Source: Undibacterium pigrum | Lineage (GTDB): Bacteria; Pseudomonadota; Gammaproteobacteria; Burkholderiales; Burkholderiaceae_D | NCBI RefSeq assembly: GCF_003201815.1 | Contig: NZ_QJKB01000003.1 | Location: 62,001 to 126,000 of the forward strand | Reading direction: 5' to 3' | DNA: 64,000 nt | Part shown: positions 176-9,505 of the stretch, piece by piece | Numbering within the stretch: the stretch's first letter is position 1 | How the letters are laid out: the number at the start of each line of letters is the position of its first letter | Notes under the pieces: model-generated | Told to the model about the DNA's origin: nothing | Seen by the model: only the letters and a program-made list of their open reading frames with translations | The model's database searches: none | Position numbers and translations under genes: made by a program

Positions 176-1365
176 GCTATCCCGAATACAAGAAGCCTAC
201 CCATCCGCAAGCCTTTGGCACGCGTGTCATCCACGCCGGGCAGTTCCCTGACCCGGTCACGGGTGCCATCATGCCGCCTATCTATGCAACCTCCACCTTC
301 GTGCAGGACAGCCCAGGTGTCCACAAGGGCCTGGACTATGGCCGCTCGCACAATCCTACCCGCTGGGCGCTGGAACGCGCCGTAGCTGACCTCGAAGGCG
401 GCGCGCAGGCATTTGCCTTTGCCTCTGGTCTGGCAGCGATAGCCACTGTGCTGGAAATCGTCGACAGTGGCGCTCATATCATCGCCGGTGATGATATGTA
501 TGGCGGCAGCTACCGTCTGTTTGAACGCGTGCGCAAACGCAGTGCTGGCCTGCAGTTCACTTATGTGGACATGACCAAGCCAGAAGAAGTGCTGGCCGCG
601 ATACGCCCTGACACCAAAATGCTGTGGGTAGAAACACCGACCAACCCCATGCTGAAACTGGCTGATCTGCGCGCCATTGCCAAGATTTGCCGCGAGCACA
701 ATATCATCGCCGTGGCTGACAATACCTTTGCCAGCCCCAAGGTACAACGTCCACTGGAACTGGGTTTCGATATCGTCGTCCATTCCATGACCAAATACCT
801 GAATGGTCACTCGGATATCATCGGCGGTGTTGCCATCGTTGGTGGCGAAGCACATCAGGCTGACTGGCGTGAGCGTCTGGGCTTTTTGCAAAATTCCGTT
901 GGTGCGATCGCCAGCCCTTTCGACAGCTTCCTCGCCTTGCGCGGTATCAAAACGCTCAATATCCGCGTTGAACGCCATAACTCAAATGGCCTGGACCTCG
1001 CACGCTGGCTGGAAAAACAGCCCAAGGTCAAGAAGGTCTATTACCCGGGTCTGGCAAGCCACCCGCAACATGAGCTGGCCAAACAGCAGATGGATGGCTT
1101 TGGCGGCATCATTTCCATAGAACTCGATACCGACCTGGCAGGCGCACGCCGCTTCCTGGAACGTTGCGAAGTATTCGCCCTGGCCGAGAGCCTGGGTGGC
1201 GTAGAAAGCCTGATAGAACATCCGGCCATCATGACGCATGCAACGATTCCTGCAGAGCAAAGAGCCAGGCTGGGTATCACAGATTCATTCATACGCCTGT
1301 CAGTAGGTATAGAAGATGTGGAAGACTTGAGGCAGGATTTGCAGTCTGCTCTCGATGCTGTTTGA
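172..1365 (+). CDS. PLP-dependent cystathionine gamma-lyase / gamma-synthase
   Basis: A 397-residue cytosolic enzyme of the Cys/Met metabolism PLP family, full length for the family. Visible marks are the phosphate-binding Tyr56/Arg58 in an YGRSHNPT stretch, Asp183 in VADNTF that contacts the cofactor nitrogen, and Lys208 in HSMTKYLNGHSD that forms the Schiff base. Members either cleave cystathionine to cysteine (reverse transsulfuration) or make it from an activated homoserine. The start overlaps the end of a putative cystathionine beta-synthase by four bases. That favours the lyase role, homocysteine to cystathionine to cysteine, but sequence alone does not separate lyase from synthase. Confidence 0.9.
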   Translation: MSYPEYKKPTHPQAFGTRVIHAGQFPDPVTGAIMPPIYATSTFVQDSPGVHKGLDYGRSHNPTRWALERAVADLEGGAQAFAFASGLAAIATVLEIVDSGAHIIAGDDMYGGSYRLFERVRKRSAGLQFTYVDMTKPEEVLAAIRPDTKMLWVETPTNPMLKLADLRAIAKICREHNIIAVADNTFASPKVQRPLELGFDIVVHSMTKYLNGHSDIIGGVAIVGGEAHQADWRERLGFLQNSVGAIASPFDSFLALRGIKTLNIRVERHNSNGLDLARWLEKQPKVKKVYYPGLASHPQHELAKQQMDGFGGIISIELDTDLAGARRFLERCEVFALAESLGGVESLIEHPAIMTHATIPAEQRARLGITDSFIRLSVGIEDVEDLRQDLQSALDAV

Positions 1366-1391
1366 TCAAACTTTGATTAAGCTATAATTGA

Positions 1392-1425
1392 CAAGCCCGG
1401 CATAGACAACCGGGCTTGCCATGTT
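1392..1425. terminator. Bidirectional hairpin terminator after the transsulfuration genes
   Basis: A perfect 9-bp stem (CAAGCCCGG at 1392-1400, CCGGGCTTG at 1410-1418) with a 9-base loop, followed by a short T run on the plus strand. It lies between two convergent genes and could serve both. Confidence 0.7.
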
Positions 1426-2349
1426 TTACTCGCGATACCAGTCAGGTAAAAAACTTCTACTACCGCTGACTCGCTGATATTTTCCTTTGGCTTCATCATA
1501 GTGAAATACCATGGTGGAACGAGGGGCACTAGGGATGACCTCATAGCTCGTGAAGTATTCGCCATTGGCATCGGGTAAGTCGTGACGTTCTATTTCGCGA
1601 TACTCAAACATCTTTGCATTTGCACTCAATACGATTTCCCCGGGCAAGTCTTTGCCTGGCTTAAGCTCCAGCTTGACCTGTATGTCCAGGCAATTACCAT
1701 CCCTCCCCTCCCTATCATTCAAACGCACACGTTCAGGCTTGCCTGGTGCTTTCTTCATACGCCTGGTGCAATCGGCATGATTGAATTCTTTCATGAGCAA
1801 CATGAAATCCTGGTTTTCAGGCAAGAGAGTTGTGATCTGATGCTGTCTCAGCATATACAGTCTGGCGAGTACATCAGTTTCACCTCTTTGAGATTGACTA
1901 TATTCAATCAATAATCCCTGCCTGGCTGGTGCCAGTTCGATGATTTTTACTGCTTTGATTTCCTGCACAGACCGCAAGCTGTCGATGTCATCCTGCCTGG
2001 CTTCGAGCAACCATTTTTCACCATCACGCTTGAACCAATAAGCTGCCAGTACATCCCTGCTGATTTTGCCAGTGTCCTCAGGAATCGCCCTGGTCAGCAG
2101 GACCGCCCTGTCGTCTGCTAGCTTCAATACTTTGACAGGTGCCAAGTACATGCCATTTTTGTTGAACCCATCGTCCTGGATTTTCAATATAGGTCGCTTG
2201 ACTATGGAATCTGCCTGCCAGCCTTTGAAAACCAGTTTCATTAGCGCATCAGGCTCCAGAGTATCGGCATATTCTGTCTTGGAACAGGCAGTCACAAACA
2301 AGAGCATGGACAATAATATGCATCGCAAGAAATAATACACTGACAGCAT
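1426..2349 (-). CDS. Putative lipoprotein of unknown function
   Basis: I do not recognise a family. The chosen ATG at 2349 gives 307 residues; the frame also opens seven codons upstream at a TTG (2370). The N-terminus is a lipoprotein signal: an Arg, a hydrophobic stretch, and a lipobox of the form LFVTAC with the acylated Cys at residue 22. The rest is polar and soluble, with several Lys/Arg-Asp/Glu pairs and no further membrane segment, so a periplasmic protein anchored to a membrane is expected. It is convergent with the transsulfuration genes and separated by about 90 bases from the flavoprotein gene that follows the LodA-like gene on the same strand, so weak co-transcription is possible. 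Confidence 0.65.
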   Translation of the reverse strand: MLSVYYFLRCILLSMLLFVTACSKTEYADTLEPDALMKLVFKGWQADSIVKRPILKIQDDGFNKNGMYLAPVKVLKLADDRAVLLTRAIPEDTGKISRDVLAAYWFKRDGEKWLLEARQDDIDSLRSVQEIKAVKIIELAPARQGLLIEYSQSQRGETDVLARLYMLRQHQITTLLPENQDFMLLMKEFNHADCTRRMKKAPGKPERVRLNDREGRDGNCLDIQVKLELKPGKDLPGEIVLSANAKMFEYREIERHDLPDANGEYFTSYEVIPSAPRSTMVFHYDEAKGKYQRVSGSRSFLPDWYRE

Positions 2350-2437
2350 CCCAGGCAAAGAAAGTGACAATTCTAGCCCAGGGGTTTTATTGCATACAGA
2401 CGCTTCACGTCTGCTTACAATTTTGCAACCAGGAAAT

Positions 2438-3541
2438 TCAGGCAGGCGTTAAAGAAGTATTACGGCGTTGCCAGAATGGCTGGTCCGCCCAGCGTTGCTC
2501 CTGCTGATACCAGACTCGCAGATGATGCAGATAAGCTGCCTGTATGGAATTCAGTTCCGCCACGTAAGCAGCTTGTGCCTCAGCATCATAATGAGACGCA
2601 GCTTCTGCTGCAGCGAGACCGGTGTACAAAGCATTAAAAATGCCCTGTGAAGATAGAGGATCAAAACTCAGCGCGGCATCGCCGATGGCCAGCCAATTGG
2701 AGCCGGCAAACTGCTCCAGCACCGCAGTGTGGGCAGCACAGTATCCATGCTGCTGCCGTGGCACAAAACCATATTCATCAAGACATGCCGACAATTGCGT
2801 ATTCTGGCGCAGACGCTGCAATAGCCCTTGCTGATGATTGCAGGCCGTCGCTGCTGGTAAATCTGCATCGGTGTAGAACGCCACAATGCGGCCCTGACCT
2901 GGCAGGGATGAGCTATACCACCAGCCGCCAGCTTCGGCACTGATGTGACTGGAGCCTGCGCTATTGTCAGTGTCCCTGCCTATCAGCCAGCTGCACACCA
3001 GTTTGTCCGTGGCTTTGCGGGCTATGCCCAGTTGCCGTGTCATTAGTGATTTTCTGCCGCTGGCGTCGATCAGCATCCTGGTTTCTACCTGCACCGTCTT
3101 GCCTTGCACGGCGATGACAGCATCCCAATATTCTGGATTGCTTTTCGCAGGTGTAAAAGACAGCAACTTGCTCTGTCTCAGCAAAGCTGCACCACGCTCT
3201 TGCGCGACATTCTGCAACCAGCAATCAAAACGATGACGGTCCAAATACCAGCCATGTCCATCGAGATTGCGCATGGCATCTTGCTCTATCGCCAGATCAC
3301 TGCCCCAGTGGCTGATATTCAAATGCGCAGGCTGATGGCCTTGCTGCAAAAATGCTTCATACAAACCCATGTCAGCCAGCAGCTTACCTGCTGCAGCTGG
3401 TAGGGATTCGCCTATGCGCATGGCTGCTGGAGGTGCGGCTTCCAGCATGACTACTTTTTGAAACGGTGCCAAGTTCAGGGCAAAGGCAGAGCCCGCAGGC
3501 CCTGCCCCCAGCACCAAGGCATCTATCTGCAACGTTCCCAC
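2438..3541 (-). CDS. LodB-like FAD-dependent oxidoreductase (CTQ maturation flavoprotein)
   Basis: 367 residues. The N-terminus has a dinucleotide-binding GAGPAG motif after a short beta strand. It is followed by a GESLP stretch and GHGWYLDRHRFD, both typical of the tryptophan-halogenase/LodB flavoproteins, and later by GDAALSFDPLSSQG, the second FAD motif. LodB-type enzymes are needed to build the cysteine tryptophylquinone cofactor of their partner oxidase. The GTG start at 3541 comes two bases after the stop of the upstream LodA-like gene, so the pair is surely co-transcribed and probably translationally coupled. This matches the lodA-lodB order known from Marinomonas. The maturation role is inferred from family and context; an independent monooxygenase or halogenase role is not excluded. 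Confidence 0.85.
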   Translation of the reverse strand: MGTLQIDALVLGAGPAGSAFALNLAPFQKVVMLEAAPPAAMRIGESLPAAAGKLLADMGLYEAFLQQGHQPAHLNISHWGSDLAIEQDAMRNLDGHGWYLDRHRFDCWLQNVAQERGAALLRQSKLLSFTPAKSNPEYWDAVIAVQGKTVQVETRMLIDASGRKSLMTRQLGIARKATDKLVCSWLIGRDTDNSAGSSHISAEAGGWWYSSSLPGQGRIVAFYTDADLPAATACNHQQGLLQRLRQNTQLSACLDEYGFVPRQQHGYCAAHTAVLEQFAGSNWLAIGDAALSFDPLSSQGIFNALYTGLAAAEAASHYDAEAQAAYVAELNSIQAAYLHHLRVWYQQEQRWADQPFWQRRNTSLTPA

Positions 3542-3543
3542 GT

Positions 3544-6495
3544 CTAACGATGCAAACCACGCGGGAAGCGGCGTACTTTTTCTATCGTCATGATATCGAC
3601 AGATTCAGCATTCGTCACTTCTGCGGCCCCTACCCTGGCATGCTCATCATGTGCGACATGCTGAGCATTTGGTGCAGGCATGTCGGCGATAGGTATATGC
3701 TGGTCTTCGACTTCAAACTCCGCCGGGAAGTGTGCATGATCAGATGGACCGGGATGCACTTCCACCACACCGAGATGATCAAAATGATGGATCATATTAT
3801 TGATCTGGTCGGTATAACTGGTGCTGCCCAGCGGGTTGATCCACGAGGCACGGTTGGCGAATGCGGCCAGCCTTTCACCCAGCGGCTTTTTCTCATCCAT
3901 GACGACGGCATAGTTTTGCTTGGTCAAAACCTGATTAGGTACGCGGGCTGGCCAGAAGCTTGGCACATAAGGGTCATACGACTTGTCGTAACCGGAACGG
4001 CAGCTTGCCGTATCTGTCTGCCAGGGTACTGCCATCCAGCGGGTGATGCCGCCAGCCTGCTGGCCGTACAAGGGGCCGTTTGGTATGGTGACGCCATCGC
4101 TGGTGAGTATTTCGCCCAGACCAGGTGCGATCCAGCCATCAAGTGCATGGGCAAAACGGAACGGCGCCATATACATGGTGCTGGCACGTACCGGCCAGGT
4201 CATTTCGCAACCTGGGTGAAAGGCATCAGCCAGGCAAAAGTCCAGCGCTGCCTGAGTCAGTGTGTCACCCTGCTGCTCCAGCGGCACCTGATCTATGCGT
4301 TCAGCATGTTTGCGTTCGGGGTCGTAGTCTTCGACAAAGTTGCCTTCTGCCCATTCCATCAGCATCGCCAATTGCGTTGCCGTCAGCGAAGCATTTTGCC
4401 TTGGTGTTTGCGCTGCTGGGATAGCCATGGCATCGCCATACAACCACGGCCAGGGTTTGGGTGACCATGCATCAACTTCATAATTGCGGAACTGGTTGGC
4501 GATGGTGCGGCGCAATTCTACATAGGCGGTGTTATTGCTGGCCAGACGCGACAAAGCATCTGCACTGGTGAGGTCAATCGCGCCCTTCCAGCCAAAGCCT
4601 GCATTGAAGCCAGCATTCACCCATTGCAAGCCATTCAGGCGCTCAAACAGGGGCAGGATGTCGAAAGTAAAGCTGGGACGTTTAGGCTTGGGCAAAGTAC
4701 CGGCAGTAATGGCGACATCGCGCATCAAATCCCACATGGTGCGCACTGATTTTCTTTGTGGCGCATAGTTCGGTGGGGCGACGACGACCCAGGACGGCTC
4801 TACCATCAATTCCAGACCTTCATAGACGACTGTGGCGTTGATGGGGCCGTCAGAAGTATCATCATGCCAGCCTTCATTATTGGCGAAGGTGATGGCGCGG
4901 CTATTGTCGTAAGAGGCGGATACACCATGCCCACCCAATACAATCAAACGACCTTGTTCATCGGTAAAAGCCTCGCCCAGATATACAGGCTTGCCCATGA
5001 ATTTGCCATCATCAAAACGCTGCGGTTTGGATTTTTTGCCGCTTACTTTTCTCTGTTTGGGCGTGATGGACAACATGGTCCTGTCGGGCACTGCCGCATT
5101 GCGCAAGGTGGTTTGCGGTGCCGAAGCAGCTTCTGGAATATCCAGCGCCAGCTGGAAGCCATACCAGGCGGACTTGGTATTGGCGAGTTGCACCTGCCAT
5201 TCTACCTTGGCATTGTCGGCATTGAGTTCCTTGACGATCTCTCCCTTGGCATTCACGCCATAGACGCGGAACCTGGCACCCTGGCGCTTGAGTTTTTTAT
5301 GGGCATCGCGGTAGTAGCCTGGTGCTTCTGGTTTTGGATAAGGCACTTCCGGCCCAAGGAACCATTCCTTCTCACTGGTGCCTACACGCGCCACACCTAT
5401 GGACGGGTAAATCACGGCCTTGACGATGCAGGTGTCTTTGACGACAGTCTCTGCCTTTGCTTGGCCTATCGCGTGAAAGGGACAGCCCGCAGTCGGGGAG
5501 CGCGGTTCACGCGGGTCTTGCAGGCTTTGCCCGTTGGCTTCATGTCTGGCATCTGCGCCTGCTGCATACACGACTTTGCGCGCCTCGGCGATGGAACCCA
5601 CTGGTGCCTGCTCTGGCGGCACGCGCCAGATATTGAAGGCCAGGCCCTGACCATATTCAGACTGTCCACGCACACTGATATCCTGCTGCGGCAAGATCAG
5701 AGTAGCGACATGGATGAAAGGACTTTCTGATTCCGGCCATTCCACCGTTGCCTCATCCAGCGGCATGGTTTTGGGATTGGTACGCAGTTGCACCATGAAG
5801 CGGAACTGGTATTCACGCTTGGCCAGGCGATTGCACATATCAACGGCCAGATAATCGCGCTCATCATTTGGTACGTTCTCTGGCGGAGTGACCGGCTCCA
5901 GGCGGTATTTGACGTATTCTTTTTTTCCAGCCTGGAAAGGCAGAATGGCCCAGTAAGTCGTGGTCAGGGTACTACCCTCGACCTTTTCCATCTGGTCCAG
6001 TATTTTTGCTGTCTTGGGATGTTTTTTCAGATAGCCGGGATAGTCCTGTGCGACCACACCGGCATAAGTGAACTCCACCATCTCCTTGGCATTATCAACA
6101 AAAAAGACTGGGAAGTTTTGCATGATGAAGTCAGCAGTGTCGCCATCATCACCCAGCGCCTTGGGGCCTGGCACACCAAACAGTTTGATACCTATGCCCA
6201 GGGTTGAATACAGGTCAGGCGAAGTTGGCGTGGTGTCGCTGGAAAACCTGACCCAGGCATCCAGGCTCTCATGCGCAAAAACACCGACCTTGAGTTTCGC
6301 CGGTATTTTCTTTTCCATGACCAGCCTGGCGCTGGCAACCCCATGTAACTTGCGGAACACCGCACGCTCCGCCGGACGCTGGCCCAGCCTGATGCGGTTC
6401 CCTTGCGCAATGCCGACGAACATCTCGGTCAGGCGCTCTGGTGCCTGGTTGGCCTGGTCAAAACATGGCGGAATGGGGTCTTGATCTTTGCTCAT
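3544..6495 (-). CDS. Fusion of a heme catalase-like domain and a LodA-type CTQ oxidase domain
   Basis: 983 residues from the ATG at 6495, which has a GGGAG ribosome site about eight bases upstream; an upstream in-frame ATG at 6597 lacks one. Residues about 20-330 resemble small heme catalases: His51 (distal), a VRFS stretch at 82-85, Asn127 before FPVFF (distal Asn), and Arg306-x3-Tyr310 (RKVVY, proximal ligand pattern). Residues about 357-930 are a LodA domain that begins IYPSIGVARVGTS. It contains a Cys754 in DFCLADAFHPG and Trp820/Trp825 in TRWMAVPWQTD, candidates for the cysteine tryptophylquinone crosslink (65 residues apart in Marinomonas LodA, 66 here for Cys754-Trp820). No signal peptide is seen. 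LodA-type enzymes oxidise amino acids and release ammonia and hydrogen peroxide. The fused catalase domain could remove or use that peroxide. The substrate is unknown. Confidence 0.88.
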   Translation of the reverse strand: MSKDQDPIPPCFDQANQAPERLTEMFVGIAQGNRIRLGQRPAERAVFRKLHGVASARLVMEKKIPAKLKVGVFAHESLDAWVRFSSDTTPTSPDLYSTLGIGIKLFGVPGPKALGDDGDTADFIMQNFPVFFVDNAKEMVEFTYAGVVAQDYPGYLKKHPKTAKILDQMEKVEGSTLTTTYWAILPFQAGKKEYVKYRLEPVTPPENVPNDERDYLAVDMCNRLAKREYQFRFMVQLRTNPKTMPLDEATVEWPESESPFIHVATLILPQQDISVRGQSEYGQGLAFNIWRVPPEQAPVGSIAEARKVVYAAGADARHEANGQSLQDPREPRSPTAGCPFHAIGQAKAETVVKDTCIVKAVIYPSIGVARVGTSEKEWFLGPEVPYPKPEAPGYYRDAHKKLKRQGARFRVYGVNAKGEIVKELNADNAKVEWQVQLANTKSAWYGFQLALDIPEAASAPQTTLRNAAVPDRTMLSITPKQRKVSGKKSKPQRFDDGKFMGKPVYLGEAFTDEQGRLIVLGGHGVSASYDNSRAITFANNEGWHDDTSDGPINATVVYEGLELMVEPSWVVVAPPNYAPQRKSVRTMWDLMRDVAITAGTLPKPKRPSFTFDILPLFERLNGLQWVNAGFNAGFGWKGAIDLTSADALSRLASNNTAYVELRRTIANQFRNYEVDAWSPKPWPWLYGDAMAIPAAQTPRQNASLTATQLAMLMEWAEGNFVEDYDPERKHAERIDQVPLEQQGDTLTQAALDFCLADAFHPGCEMTWPVRASTMYMAPFRFAHALDGWIAPGLGEILTSDGVTIPNGPLYGQQAGGITRWMAVPWQTDTASCRSGYDKSYDPYVPSFWPARVPNQVLTKQNYAVVMDEKKPLGERLAAFANRASWINPLGSTSYTDQINNMIHHFDHLGVVEVHPGPSDHAHFPAEFEVEDQHIPIADMPAPNAQHVAHDEHARVGAAEVTNAESVDIMTIEKVRRFPRGLHR

Positions 6496-6622
6496 ACACT
6501 GTCTCCCTTTTTGTACTGTATGCGGACTTTGGCTTTGGCTAGTACATACGTTGACACGGACATTTACCGGACACACATAGCAAGGCGTGTCCGGCAAACA
6601 TGAAAATCAGGAATGCAGGATG

Positions 6623-6693
6623 ATTATTTGATAATATTAAATTTTCGTCAAGTTCGGATGGCCGCGAATGTGCATTTTTGACAAAACTTGACG
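6623..6693 (-). promoter_or_regulatory. Putative promoter and operator of the catalase-LodA / LodB unit
   Basis: On the minus strand a TTGACG box (6652-6647) and an AATAAT box (6628-6623), 18 bases apart, resemble a sigma-70 promoter and would give a leader of roughly 120 bases before the ATG at 6495. The -35 box lies inside one arm of a perfect 9-bp inverted repeat, CGTCAAGTT at 6646-6654 and AACTTGACG at 6685-6693, spaced by 30 bases, as expected for an operator. The binding protein is unknown. Confidence 0.45.
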
Positions 6694-6731
6694 ATGTTGG
6701 TCTGGGGTATGAATGCATGCCCCGGGCAAAG

Positions 6732-7484
6732 TCATTTAGCCCCGACTTCACCCGTCATGAGGCGGTTGAAATAGACCGTACCCTGCCCTTTGCGCAAGCC
6801 ATACAATTGCGCAGGGCGATTGCTGCCCAGACGCCATTTTCCCGGCAACTCTTCCAGAAAGTCACCTTCCCGGATGCGCTTGCGAAATGCGCTCTTGTCC
6901 ACCAGACGCCCCAGCAAGACCTGGTATACGCGCTGCAGCTCAGACAGGGTAAATTCTTCCGGCAATAGATGCGCTGGCAAAGAGGTGTATTCCACCTTGT
7001 TGCGCAGGCGCTGGACAGCAACATCGAGTATCTGCGCATGGTCAAAGGCCAGCTTGGGCAAGCCCTCGTCCGACTCAACCGGACACCAGCGCACGGCATC
7101 GGCATTGCCACCATGGCTGAGCGTGATGCGGTCAGAAGAGATCAGGGCAAAATAAGCAAAGGTAGTAGACCAGCCACGCGGATCACGGTTGCGGCTGCCA
7201 AAACCCTGCAATTGTTCAAGATAAGGCGCTTCCACACCTGTCTTTTCCTTGAGCTTGCGCAGGGCTGCGCCATCCAGGTCTATATCATTATGGATATCAA
7301 TAAAGCCGCCAGGCAAACTCCATTGCCCCTTGCAAGGATGGTCACCTCGCTTGACCAGCAAGACTTGCAGAGTCTGGTCCCTGATCGTGAAAATCACCAG
7401 GTCTACACTCGTCAAGGGAACATCATAGTCATGGATATTGTAATTGAGCAGAAATTCTTTTTCGCCTTGTTTAGCAGTCGCCAT
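6732..7484 (-). CDS. NrtR-type Nudix transcriptional regulator
   Basis: 250 residues. The first part (about 15-150) is a Nudix fold with a KGQWSLPGGF stretch. The last 80 residues form a winged-helix region rich in Leu/Arg (FTLSELQRVYQVLLG), the layout of NrtR regulators that control NAD or sugar metabolism genes. The Nudix signature is degenerate: the consensus RExxEExG reads RKLKEKTG, so two catalytic Glu positions are Lys. Hydrolase activity is therefore doubtful and a ligand-sensing role is likelier. ATG at 7484 has an AGGGGA ribosome site. It is divergent from an oxygenase gene, and interleaved inverted repeats lie between them. Its regulon cannot be read from this window. Confidence 0.8.
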   Translation of the reverse strand: MATAKQGEKEFLLNYNIHDYDVPLTSVDLVIFTIRDQTLQVLLVKRGDHPCKGQWSLPGGFIDIHNDIDLDGAALRKLKEKTGVEAPYLEQLQGFGSRNRDPRGWSTTFAYFALISSDRITLSHGGNADAVRWCPVESDEGLPKLAFDHAQILDVAVQRLRNKVEYTSLPAHLLPEEFTLSELQRVYQVLLGRLVDKSAFRKRIREGDFLEELPGKWRLGSNRPAQLYGLRKGQGTVYFNRLMTGEVGAK

Positions 7485-7549
7485 GCTTTTTCCCCTGAGT
7501 ATTCAATGCTGACATTGTAAGCGATAGCAGCATTTAGTACAAATCCGTC

Positions 7550-7592
7550 ACTAAGTTCGTAAATATTTAAAACTAACTTAGTTGATATTTAC
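7550..7592. promoter_or_regulatory. Interleaved inverted repeats between the NrtR-type and oxygenase genes
   Basis: Two overlapping palindromes lie in the AT-rich divergent spacer. ACTAAGTT (7550-7557) pairs with AACTTAGT (7575-7582), and GTAAATAT (7559-7566) pairs with ATATTTAC (7585-7592). Arms of 8 bp with 17-18 base spacing suit a dimeric regulator. The adjacent NrtR-type protein is the obvious candidate, giving autoregulation or control of the oxygenase; this is inference. Confidence 0.4.
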
Positions 7593-7640
7593 AACAAAGT
7601 ATCTTATATTACAGTCAGCACGAAATAAATCGAGAACGAT

Positions 7641-8198
7641 ATGGAACTCAATAACTACGGTGCAGGCGTATTTGGCATCAAAAATTTCATCACTGAAGAA
7701 GAATGCGAACGCATGATCTTTACCAGTGAACAAATGGGCTATGAAGAAGCCATGGTGCAAACTGGCACAGGCATGTGCATGTTCAAGGAAATACGCAACA
7801 ATGACCGTATCATCTTTGATGACAAGGCACTGGCAGCAGCGATCTTTGAAAGAGCAAAACTATTCCTGCCTGCAGAATTGAAAGAATGGCGCTTGCTGGG
7901 TCTGAATGAACGCTTTCGTTTCTACCGCTACGAGCCTGGCCAATACTTCAAATGGCATAAGGATGGGAACTATGCCCGCACAGAAGATGAAGTCAGCTTT
8001 TTAACTCTGCTGATTTATCTCAATGGTGACTACACTGGCGGCAGCACATCCTTTCGCTGGGAAACGATACAGCCAGAAAAAGGCATGGCGCTGGTTTTCC
8101 CGCATATGATGTTGCATCAGGGTGCCCCTGTAGAGAGTGGTGTGAAATATGTCTTGCGTACAGATGTGATGTACAAGAATATAGCTAACTCCCAGTAA
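7641..8198 (+). CDS. 2-oxoglutarate/Fe(II) oxygenase, prolyl-4-hydroxylase-like
   Basis: 185 residues, one domain, cytosolic. The iron site is visible as HKD in FKWHKDGNY (His and Asp ligands, about residues 110-112) and a distal His in MLHQGAPVESG. The Arg in YVLRTDVMY is the expected 2-oxoglutarate carboxylate binder. The stretch GDYTGGSTSF is typical of the P4Hc core. Such enzymes hydroxylate a proline, lysine or small molecule using 2-oxoglutarate and oxygen; the substrate here is unknown. It stands alone, divergent from the NrtR-type regulator, with its own spacer of inverted repeats. Confidence 0.85.
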   Translation: MELNNYGAGVFGIKNFITEEECERMIFTSEQMGYEEAMVQTGTGMCMFKEIRNNDRIIFDDKALAAAIFERAKLFLPAELKEWRLLGLNERFRFYRYEPGQYFKWHKDGNYARTEDEVSFLTLLIYLNGDYTGGSTSFRWETIQPEKGMALVFPHMMLHQGAPVESGVKYVLRTDVMYKNIANSQ

Positions 8199-8274
8199 GA
8201 AAAATGATGCATGGCTTTGCATCAAGTAGAGATTACGGGGCATACTCTAATTTTTGCGTAAGGGCTTGCAAGGC

Positions 8275-9505
8275 ATGCTTAGTCAATTCAGTCTCAGGTT
8301 GTTAGTCGCACTAACTTGCTTAGTCCATATCTGCGCTCATGCTGGCAGCACCGAAGCACCAGGCGCACATACAACAAGGCTGAAGCAACTCAAGGAAGCA
8401 GAGACAGGACTACTGGAAGCCCAGTCCAGGACTTATCCTGATGATAAAGCCAAACGTGCGGTGCTCAATTCTAAATATCTGTCTTTAGGATTGATGCGTT
8501 CCATGGTTGCCGATGGCGACGGTGCAGTTGCGGCGTTCAATCGCATGCCTGTCGAAGATGTTCCAGCAACAAAGAGTGAATTTGACAGCATCAATCATGC
8601 AATAGCTGAAGACGCTATTGCTGCCATCGTCCGTGAAGCAAAGAAAACACGGGTAGTCATTTTAAACGAAGCGCATCATGTGCCCATGCATAGAGCATTT
8701 GCGATGAAGCTGGCACGGGAATTAAAGAAGGCAGGTTATACCTACCTGGCCTGTGAGGCCTTCAGTATGTATGATGACTTCCCTTTGCAAAAACAATACG
8801 TCAGCGAAAAAGCGGGTATTTTAACTAAAGAATCCACATATGCCAATTTCTTGCGCGATGCCATGCAGGGTCAATGGAAGTTTGTCAGCTATGAACCAGT
8901 CAATGGGCCGCGTGAATCAGAAATGGCAAAAAAATCTGGTGCAAAAAATATTCAGGCAAGACCCCAAGGCAAAAGTCTTTATCTATGTCGGCTATGGCCA
9001 TGCCTATGAATTCCCCATAGCTGAGACAGATGATGACAAATCCAAAATGGCAGCGCAATTAAAAAGACTGACGGGCATCAATCCATTGACGATAGACCAG
9101 ACGGCCATGTATGAACATGTCGATTCAAAAAGGCAAAGCAATTTGTATAAAGCTGCCCTTGCCAAAATGAAACAGGAAAAACCGTTTGTGCTCAAGTCTG
9201 ACAATCAACATTATTTAAAACTGGGCATCAATAATAAACTGGTCGACATGCAAGTCATCTACCCGGCCTATTCCAGCAGCCCTGCAACTGGCAGAGCCAG
9301 CTGGCTGGCTACACTGGCGGGATTTACGCCCAGGGACATTCCAAAAGAATTACTACCTGCTACAGGACGACGCCTTATCTATGCTTATCACAAACAAGAG
9401 CCGGCAGATGGCGTGCCAGCAGATGTAGTGATCGTGGAAGCAGGCAAAGCTGCACCTAAATTAATGCTACCACCAGGCGAGTTCCGCTTTGCTTTTGAAG
9501 ACTGA
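8275..9505 (+). pseudogene. Frameshifted ChaN/Tiki-superfamily-like secreted protein gene
   Basis: Two frames make one protein. The first runs from ATG 8275 (a TTG at 8254 is also open), begins with a signal peptide of about 24 residues, and carries ILNEAHHVPMHR near residue 125, like the GE-x-H motif of the ChaN/TraB/Tiki fold. The second continues with VFIYVGYGHAYEF, the usual second His motif, and ends at 9505. The break sits at a run of seven A (about 8927-8933). With six A the reading passes smoothly from MAK into NLVQKIFRQDPKAK. The gene is thus disrupted by one extra base, or the run was misread. Function would be periplasmic, perhaps heme- or metal-dependent. The two halves are otherwise intact, so the damage is recent or artefactual. 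Confidence 0.75.

Follow-up and report, generated by a model that had tools for sequence, protein, structure and literature searches.

A catalase-fold domain with phenylalanine in the column of the essential histidine, fused to a LodA/GoxA-type oxidase in Undibacterium pigrum

We analyzed a stretch of 64,000 nucleotides from the 6.4 Mb genome of Undibacterium pigrum (contig NZ_QJKB01000003.1, positions 62,001 to 126,000 of the forward strand; hereafter the window) and focused on a gene on its minus strand (3544–6495) whose open reading frame (ORF), domain matches and alignments identify a 983-residue fusion of a y4iL-type catalase-fold domain with a LodA/GoxA-type cysteine tryptophylquinone (CTQ) oxidase. 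The N-terminal domain keeps the haem-binding residues of catalases, and in all LodA-linked copies (59 out of 59 alignment rows) a phenylalanine occupies the column of the essential catalase histidine. We consider it probable, with real room for doubt, that the protein combines a LodB-matured CTQ oxidase with an accessory haem module that is not a catalase. An earlier note on this DNA, drawn from the letters alone, had inferred an oxidase that either clears the peroxide it makes or spends it on a second oxidation; its observation was partly confirmed here and its interpretation partly supported.

The fusion architecture is not new, although that note knew of no description of it. In the sections of their 2015 paper that we consulted (PMC4417212), Campillo-Brocal et al. 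list 21 group III proteins of the LodA family (963–1072 residues) that carry a pfam00199/cd08152 domain at the N-terminus and match the fusion in domain content and order (Table 3), including that of Massilia timonae CCUG 45783 (979 residues), a strain also represented among our loci (L023). The cd08152 label for such fusions comes from that paper. Its authors state that these domains bind haem and are not necessarily catalases, and that, as far as they knew, no protein of group III had then been characterised. In a term search of the paper, ‘histidine’ occurred once, within a reference, and ‘distal’ 0 times; the sections consulted do not discuss the distal histidine. Our own search of the open-licence literature, a scope outside which most subscription papers fall, found among the papers listed no title or abstract on a characterised fusion of a LodA, GoxA or CTQ oxidase with a catalase or haem domain. 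The fusion has been recorded since 2015 with its added domain in question, and because all LodA-linked copies examined have lost the histidine, what was a vague catalase label becomes a precise and testable question. If the domain is not a catalase, to label such domains as catalases is misleading, and an oxidase with two cofactors, quinone and haem, awaits characterisation. To the published outline we add a correction of the CTQ pair, a Phe-for-His signature of the class and a case in which the two parts are split into separate genes.

Homology of the N-terminal domain to catalases

The catalase-fold haem domain covers residues ~20–332 (5500–6438, minus strand), as defined by profiles, Foldseek and residue counts. 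Its homology to catalases is weak for the single sequence and clear with profiles. The whole fusion protein gave no match to Pfam Catalase (PF00199) at 0.001, the N-terminal part alone scored 16.1–16.2 bits and did not reach the 25-bit cut-off, and a PDB sequence search with this part alone returned no match. On the side of the profiles, 24 of the 29 domains in our alignment A2 matched the Pfam Catalase model at E-values up to 1, and a profile search with the N-terminal domain retrieved MAP2744c (3e4w) with an E-value of 1.3e-15 and true catalases from 1.3e-9. Regarding the fold, the model of the domain had a predicted local distance difference test score (pLDDT) of 88.5 and 3e4y as its best Foldseek match (E 8e-17, template modelling (TM) score 0.69), with TM scores of 0.63–0.69 over the length of the model for the 50 matches listed, which include catalases and the coral structure 1u5u. 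The earlier note had proposed a domain search and taken a missing catalase hit in residues 20–330 as evidence against itself: the search recovered LodA_N and LodA_C and left Pfam Catalase below its cut-off, so that such a hit is formally absent, while the profiles and Foldseek do show the homology.

MAP2744c, a 33-kDa catalase-related protein (3e4w/3e4y), is the best match of the domain by both fold and profile, and differs from it in being stand-alone and in sharing 17% identity. Besides, tblastn aligned residues 23–328 with a catalase-annotated protein of plasmid pNGR234a of Sinorhizobium fredii NGR234 (L128, presumably y4iL) at 31% identity (E 2e-27). This homologue carries His at position 47, and no LodA was found among the 7 annotated features of its 9-kb stretch.

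Phenylalanine in the column of the distal histidine in LodA-linked domains

According to the sections consulted of a review (PMC9687031), the catalase pocket comprises a tyrosine ligand with an arginine, three propionate arginines, an essential distal histidine, a catalytic asparagine and a serine. We read the corresponding positions from a family alignment containing the window protein, 53 fused domains, 46 other domains and the genome's own catalase. Copies of the window gene (L001, L002, L093) and refetched entries (L094, L123, L095, L148, L130, L138) were dropped before the residue counts, the partial domains L039 and L126 were kept outside the alignment, and the row of the own catalase was trusted up to about column 132, its RLFSY motif lying elsewhere than the stretch aligned at 306–317. 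A motif count by pattern was discarded in favour of this alignment because the pattern matched wrong places.

Neither the 53 fused rows nor the 46 others show any substitution at Arg44, Arg83, Arg306, Tyr310 or Arg317. Asn127 is present in the 53 fused rows and in 27 of the 46 others, and Ser85 in 52 of the 53 fused rows. In the HMMER alignments, Arg306 and Tyr310 coincide with RLFSY in a fungal catalase and with RTLVY in MAP2744c; following the alignment, we take Arg44, Arg83 and Arg317 to be the counterparts of the propionate arginines. Since this set of arginines and tyrosine is kept, the domain very likely binds haem. Among the catalase residues named in the earlier note, Asn127, Arg306 and Tyr310 held up; His51 did not, as the column of the essential histidine is that of Phe47 (codon at 6355–6357, minus strand).

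Phe47 was found in the window protein, in the 53 fused rows and in five further rows: two whose LodA is encoded separately (L120, L125), two with a broken LodA (L077, L127) and one whose LodA did not pass the length filter (L141). Column 47 of the 46 other rows holds His in 36, Asn in 4, Gln in 1 and Phe in these 5, so that the 41 rows without linkage to LodA show 36 His, 4 Asn, 1 Gln and no Phe. The genome's own catalase has His in this column (RIVHARGTG), and hhalign with a profile of 13 stand-alone relatives set RRDAHPKMHG on its ERIVHARGTG, histidine on histidine. With a phenylalanine predicted over the haem and no histidine for the acid–base step, the domain is unlikely to work as a catalase.

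We also considered His51 as the distal histidine and rejected it. This residue occurs in 39 of the 46 rows that do not share one ORF with LodA, and 36 of the 41 non-LodA rows have His at 47 too; being common outside the fusions, beside His47, it is not a replacement that the fusions acquired.

The phenylalanine does not stand alone. Ser86, Asp87, Gln126 and Trp182 do not vary among the 59 Phe47 rows and are not fixed in the others, which makes the pocket look re-fitted rather than decayed, and 33 columns, column 47 included, separate the Phe47 class from the rest by the chosen threshold. The class spans Pseudomonadota, Bacteroidota, Actinomycetota, Myxococcota and one metagenome-assembled genome (MAG) of Bacillota. 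In a quick tree of the domain, in which L125 and others are long rows, the 47 Phe47 rows that were kept form one side of a branch with a Shimodaira–Hasegawa-like approximate likelihood ratio support (SH-aLRT) of 100; about 20 near-copies were excluded from this tree, and as many from the LodA tree described below.

Asparagine at the position of the essential histidine was seen in the catalase-like domains of L099, L013, L097 and L105. In L099 (139–2391), the Asn-type domain shares one ORF with a DyP peroxidase-like stretch (Pfam E 0.0086, below the cut-off), whose GFRDGI we take to be the motif of that family.

The oxidase part and its candidate CTQ residues

The oxidase part corresponds to residues ~358–983 (3544–5424, minus strand) and was recognised, in agreement with the earlier note, by LodA_N in residues 363–572 (E 9e-82, 275 bits for a Pfam cut-off of 26.3) and LodA_C in residues 695–848 (E 6e-39, 134 bits for a cut-off of 25). 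Foldseek matched this part to GoxA (6byw, E 2e-29) and LodA (3wev, E 2e-26). The fusion did not pass either of the NCBIfam equivalog models, with 427 of the 750 bits required for GoxA and 159 of the 600 for LodA. By these scores, it is a member of the LodA/GoxA family without being GoxA or LodA itself.

The fusion protein shares the oxidase fold and the CTQ cysteine with LodA of Marinomonas mediterranea (3weu/2ymw) and with GoxA of Pseudoalteromonas luteoviolacea (6byw), and Cys832/Trp848 is its candidate CTQ pair. The stretch Asp828-x3-Cys832 (4000–4014, minus strand) aligns with GoxA Asp678 and Cys682, a numbering confirmed by D678 variant structures. The CTQ residues described for LodA are Cys516 and Trp581 (PMC4417212, in the sections consulted). 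The alignment with LodA stops one residue past the cysteine, with LodA 517 opposite residue 833, and Cys832 is therefore the counterpart of LodA Cys516. Trp848 (3952–3954, minus strand) stands opposite GoxA Trp697; the LodA alignments, ending at LodA 517, fall short of Trp581. Trp825, Asp828, Cys832 and Trp848 are invariant in all 46 aligned proteins. The earlier note had proposed Cys754 with Trp820 or Trp825, a choice that we abandoned: it was mis-aligned to GoxA and LodA, Cys754 and Trp820 are not invariant (43 and 45 of the 46 proteins, respectively), and Trp825, although invariant, lies opposite a GoxA tryptophan that precedes the CTQ cysteine by 7 residues.

Regarding the rest of the active site, His760 is invariant and aligns with GoxA His583, while the GoxA loop with Tyr766 and His767 faces a gap in the fusion protein, so glycine is not predicted as a substrate. 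The CTQ loop (824–850) has a pLDDT below 50 in the full-length model, too low to judge a shared channel between the haem pocket and the CTQ.

The gene for the LodB-like partner starts with GTG 2 bases downstream of the fusion gene (2438–3541, minus strand), as the earlier note had reported. Its best NCBIfam matches are maturase_LodB (E 6e-70, 236 bits) and GoxB (E 2e-69, 234 bits), neither of which reaches its equivalog cut-off of 400 bits, and it encodes a LodB/GoxB-type flavoprotein and probable CTQ maturase.

Distribution and linkage to lodA–lodB

We compared 78 loci obtained from a whole-protein scan with patterns from both domains, among the matches listed; these counts are no estimate of frequency. 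The nearest relatives among these matches come from a Burkholderiales MAG (97%, L021), Undibacterium umbellatum (96%, L038) and Undibacterium sp. TS12 (90%, L014). Counting fusions among LodA homologues, as the earlier note had advised, gave both domains in one ORF at 41 of the 78 loci: 40 with a single ORF, two of which run off the end of their contig (L025, L034), and a fusion at a contig end that has lost its front (L039). L077 is a fusion in broken frames. The remaining 36 loci have the oxidase only, the unfused status of two being unsure (L052 starts at a contig end and L057 is broken). A LodB-like ORF was present at 75 of the 78 loci, the contig running out in the other three (L025, L034, L081), and besides lodB no family of neighbours appeared in more than 9 of the 54 loci compared. 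Within 6-kb flanks, some of them shortened by contig ends, none of the 36 unfused LodA loci had a separate domain-like ORF.

In even draws of genomes, centre included, we looked for the domain or a relative at E-values up to 1e-20. Within the phylum of U. pigrum itself, 26 of 398 genomes had it (3 of the 26 of the Phe47 type), and it was present in 8 of 395 genomes of the phylum of a Tenacibaculum (8 of 8), in 10 of 385 genomes of the class of an Azospirillum (5 of 10) and in 2 of 376 genomes of the phylum of a Humibacillus (1 of 2), and the matches without Phe47 are stand-alone relatives. Among plasmids, 31 of 72,556 records match the domain.

Apart from one plasmid record (L128), the 41 rows that lack Phe47 derive from 38 genomes. 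Whole-genome searches of these 38, which hold 40 of the 41 rows, found LodA_N in a single genome (G012), and there the LodA lies on a different contig from the His47 gene. Twelve genomes with an unfused LodA were also searched whole: 11 had no related domain at E-values up to 1e-8, and the domain of the twelfth is of the His47 type.

A working link between the two parts is supported by locus L120 (genome G372), where lodA (796 residues) and lodB (367 residues) are followed by a separate gene of 635 residues with a domain of the Phe47 type in its first half. At L125, on a plasmid of Sinorhizobium medicae, an ORF of this type stands by itself ahead of a LodB-like gene and a lodA in decay, an arrangement that may have arisen from a fusion by decay. 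On the tree of LodA, domain-bearing and domain-less forms are mixed, with 6 changes among 75 rows (L039 and L077 relabelled from unfused, L052 and L120 excluded), in agreement with a remark made in 2015 that the fusions do not cluster (PMC4417212, in the sections consulted).

Some of these loci hold further stretches of note. In the separate gene of L120 (9200–11107), the ~290 residues that follow the Phe47-type domain have no Pfam match above the cut-off, and the lodA of this locus (5565–7955) has ~150 extra N-terminal residues with no Pfam match. On Sinorhizobium plasmids, the frame of lodA is split into several by decay, next to a domain of the Phe47 type (L125, 8984–10914; L127, 6040–9400). 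Finally, a remnant of a Phe47-type domain was found on Agrobacterium vitis plasmids (L126, 5872–6474; three records), where annotated ORFs of the opposite strand overlap it.

Possible roles of the added domain

In the scheme that we favour, the adjacent LodB-like flavoprotein would mature the quinone from Cys832 and Trp848, and the oxidase part, judging by its family, would oxidise an amine or amino acid and release hydrogen peroxide. The N-terminal domain would bind haem through Tyr310 as the ligand, with a phenylalanine ring in place of the essential distal histidine and with the haem clamps, the distal asparagine and the serine still there. It would thus be an accessory haem module that meets the peroxide or the electrons of the oxidase without the acid–base step of the histidine, and its output may be a slow or organic-substrate peroxidase-type reaction, or the sensing or tuning of redox state.

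Several points weigh against this scheme. The HMMER alignment to the fungal catalase 6rjr starts at residue 49 and would set the essential histidine on Lys49; we preferred the other register because it keeps an invariant arginine three residues before the histidine, and His51 is the essential histidine in neither. When the profile of the fused domains was compared directly with the own catalase by hhalign, the outcome was a weak local match only (probability 43%, from residue 100). To speak of a side chain over the haem is to follow a placement by alignment alone. His51 or Asn127 could in principle stand in, partly, for the lost histidine. The 59 rows make up one clade, so Phe47 may go back to a single event, and some genes are represented by two rows (L003/L038 and L044/L121, among others). 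Moreover, unfused LodA relatives manage without the domain, which is therefore not needed for the oxidase chemistry in general.

A more ambitious form of this scheme takes the LodA-linked domain as a distinct Phe-for-His class that receives CTQ-derived peroxide or electrons in cis or from the same operon for chemistry other than that of catalases, which would make the protein a natural quinone–haem cascade enzyme; we put it forward tentatively. A cascade in which the haem would use peroxide from the CTQ site to oxidise a second substrate, as a peroxidase or peroxygenase, is likewise possible rather than expected. The nearest solved relative, MAP2744c, reportedly has peroxidase activity, to go by the title of its paper. 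In the coral allene oxide synthase–lipoxygenase, the catalase-fold domain (1u5u), also a fold match of ours, lies N-terminal to an oxygenase, a similar layout with a different partner enzyme, and a phenylalanine in the distal pocket would favour organic substrates. The coral domain presumably keeps its distal histidine. Against a cascade, the distal histidine of catalases serves in the formation of compound I. It has an acid–base role in their second step (PMC9687031, in the sections consulted), and its loss should slow such chemistry.

We find it rather unlikely that the N-terminal domain is a non-catalytic remnant with a structural, targeting or regulatory role. Its presence and absence by turns on the LodA tree and the lack of any conserved partner gene other than lodB would fit such a remnant. 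But 56 positions, those for haem binding included, are invariant among 32 fused domains from several phyla, and in a comparison of the loci the N-terminal part was about as conserved as the oxidase part.

The self-protecting oxidase of the earlier note, whose haem domain would be a working catalase that clears the peroxide made by LodA, appears improbable to us. The catalase fold, the conserved haem-binding residues, the retained distal asparagine and serine, and the fusion in cis with a probable peroxide maker all speak for it. Against it stand the phenylalanine of all 59 LodA-linked rows, the 12 genomes with an unfused LodA, 11 of them without any related domain and the twelfth with the His47 type, and a separate full catalase encoded in the genome of U. 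pigrum itself (a frame of 745 residues with the three Pfam domains typical of long catalases). An assembly artefact or a chance join of two genes, for which we found no supporting point, is refuted by the single ORFs at 41 of the 78 loci in independent assemblies and by the fusions among plasmid proteins annotated as LodA/GoxA.

Genomic setting of the gene pair

The fusion ORF starts with ATG, with a GGGAG stretch immediately 5' of it. Judged by eye, no signal peptide was seen on the fusion protein, and PADLOC gave no match for it or for the LodB-like protein. A promoter-like site, TTGACG-17-AATAAT, lies upstream of the operon (6623–6651, minus strand) and was assigned by consensus match only; positions 1300–7600 hold 9 such sites, compared with a mean of 4.8 in shuffled sequences. 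On the same strand, 236 bases upstream of the fusion gene, we found an NrtR-type Nudix regulator (6732–7484) with 253 bits, below the NCBIfam cut-off of 400. Further on, the plus strand (8254–9505) encodes a ChaN/Tiki-type haem-uptake protein (PF04187, E 2e-6) next to another ORF that overlaps it (8254–9009 and 8840–9505), the two being possibly a single gene with a frameshift.

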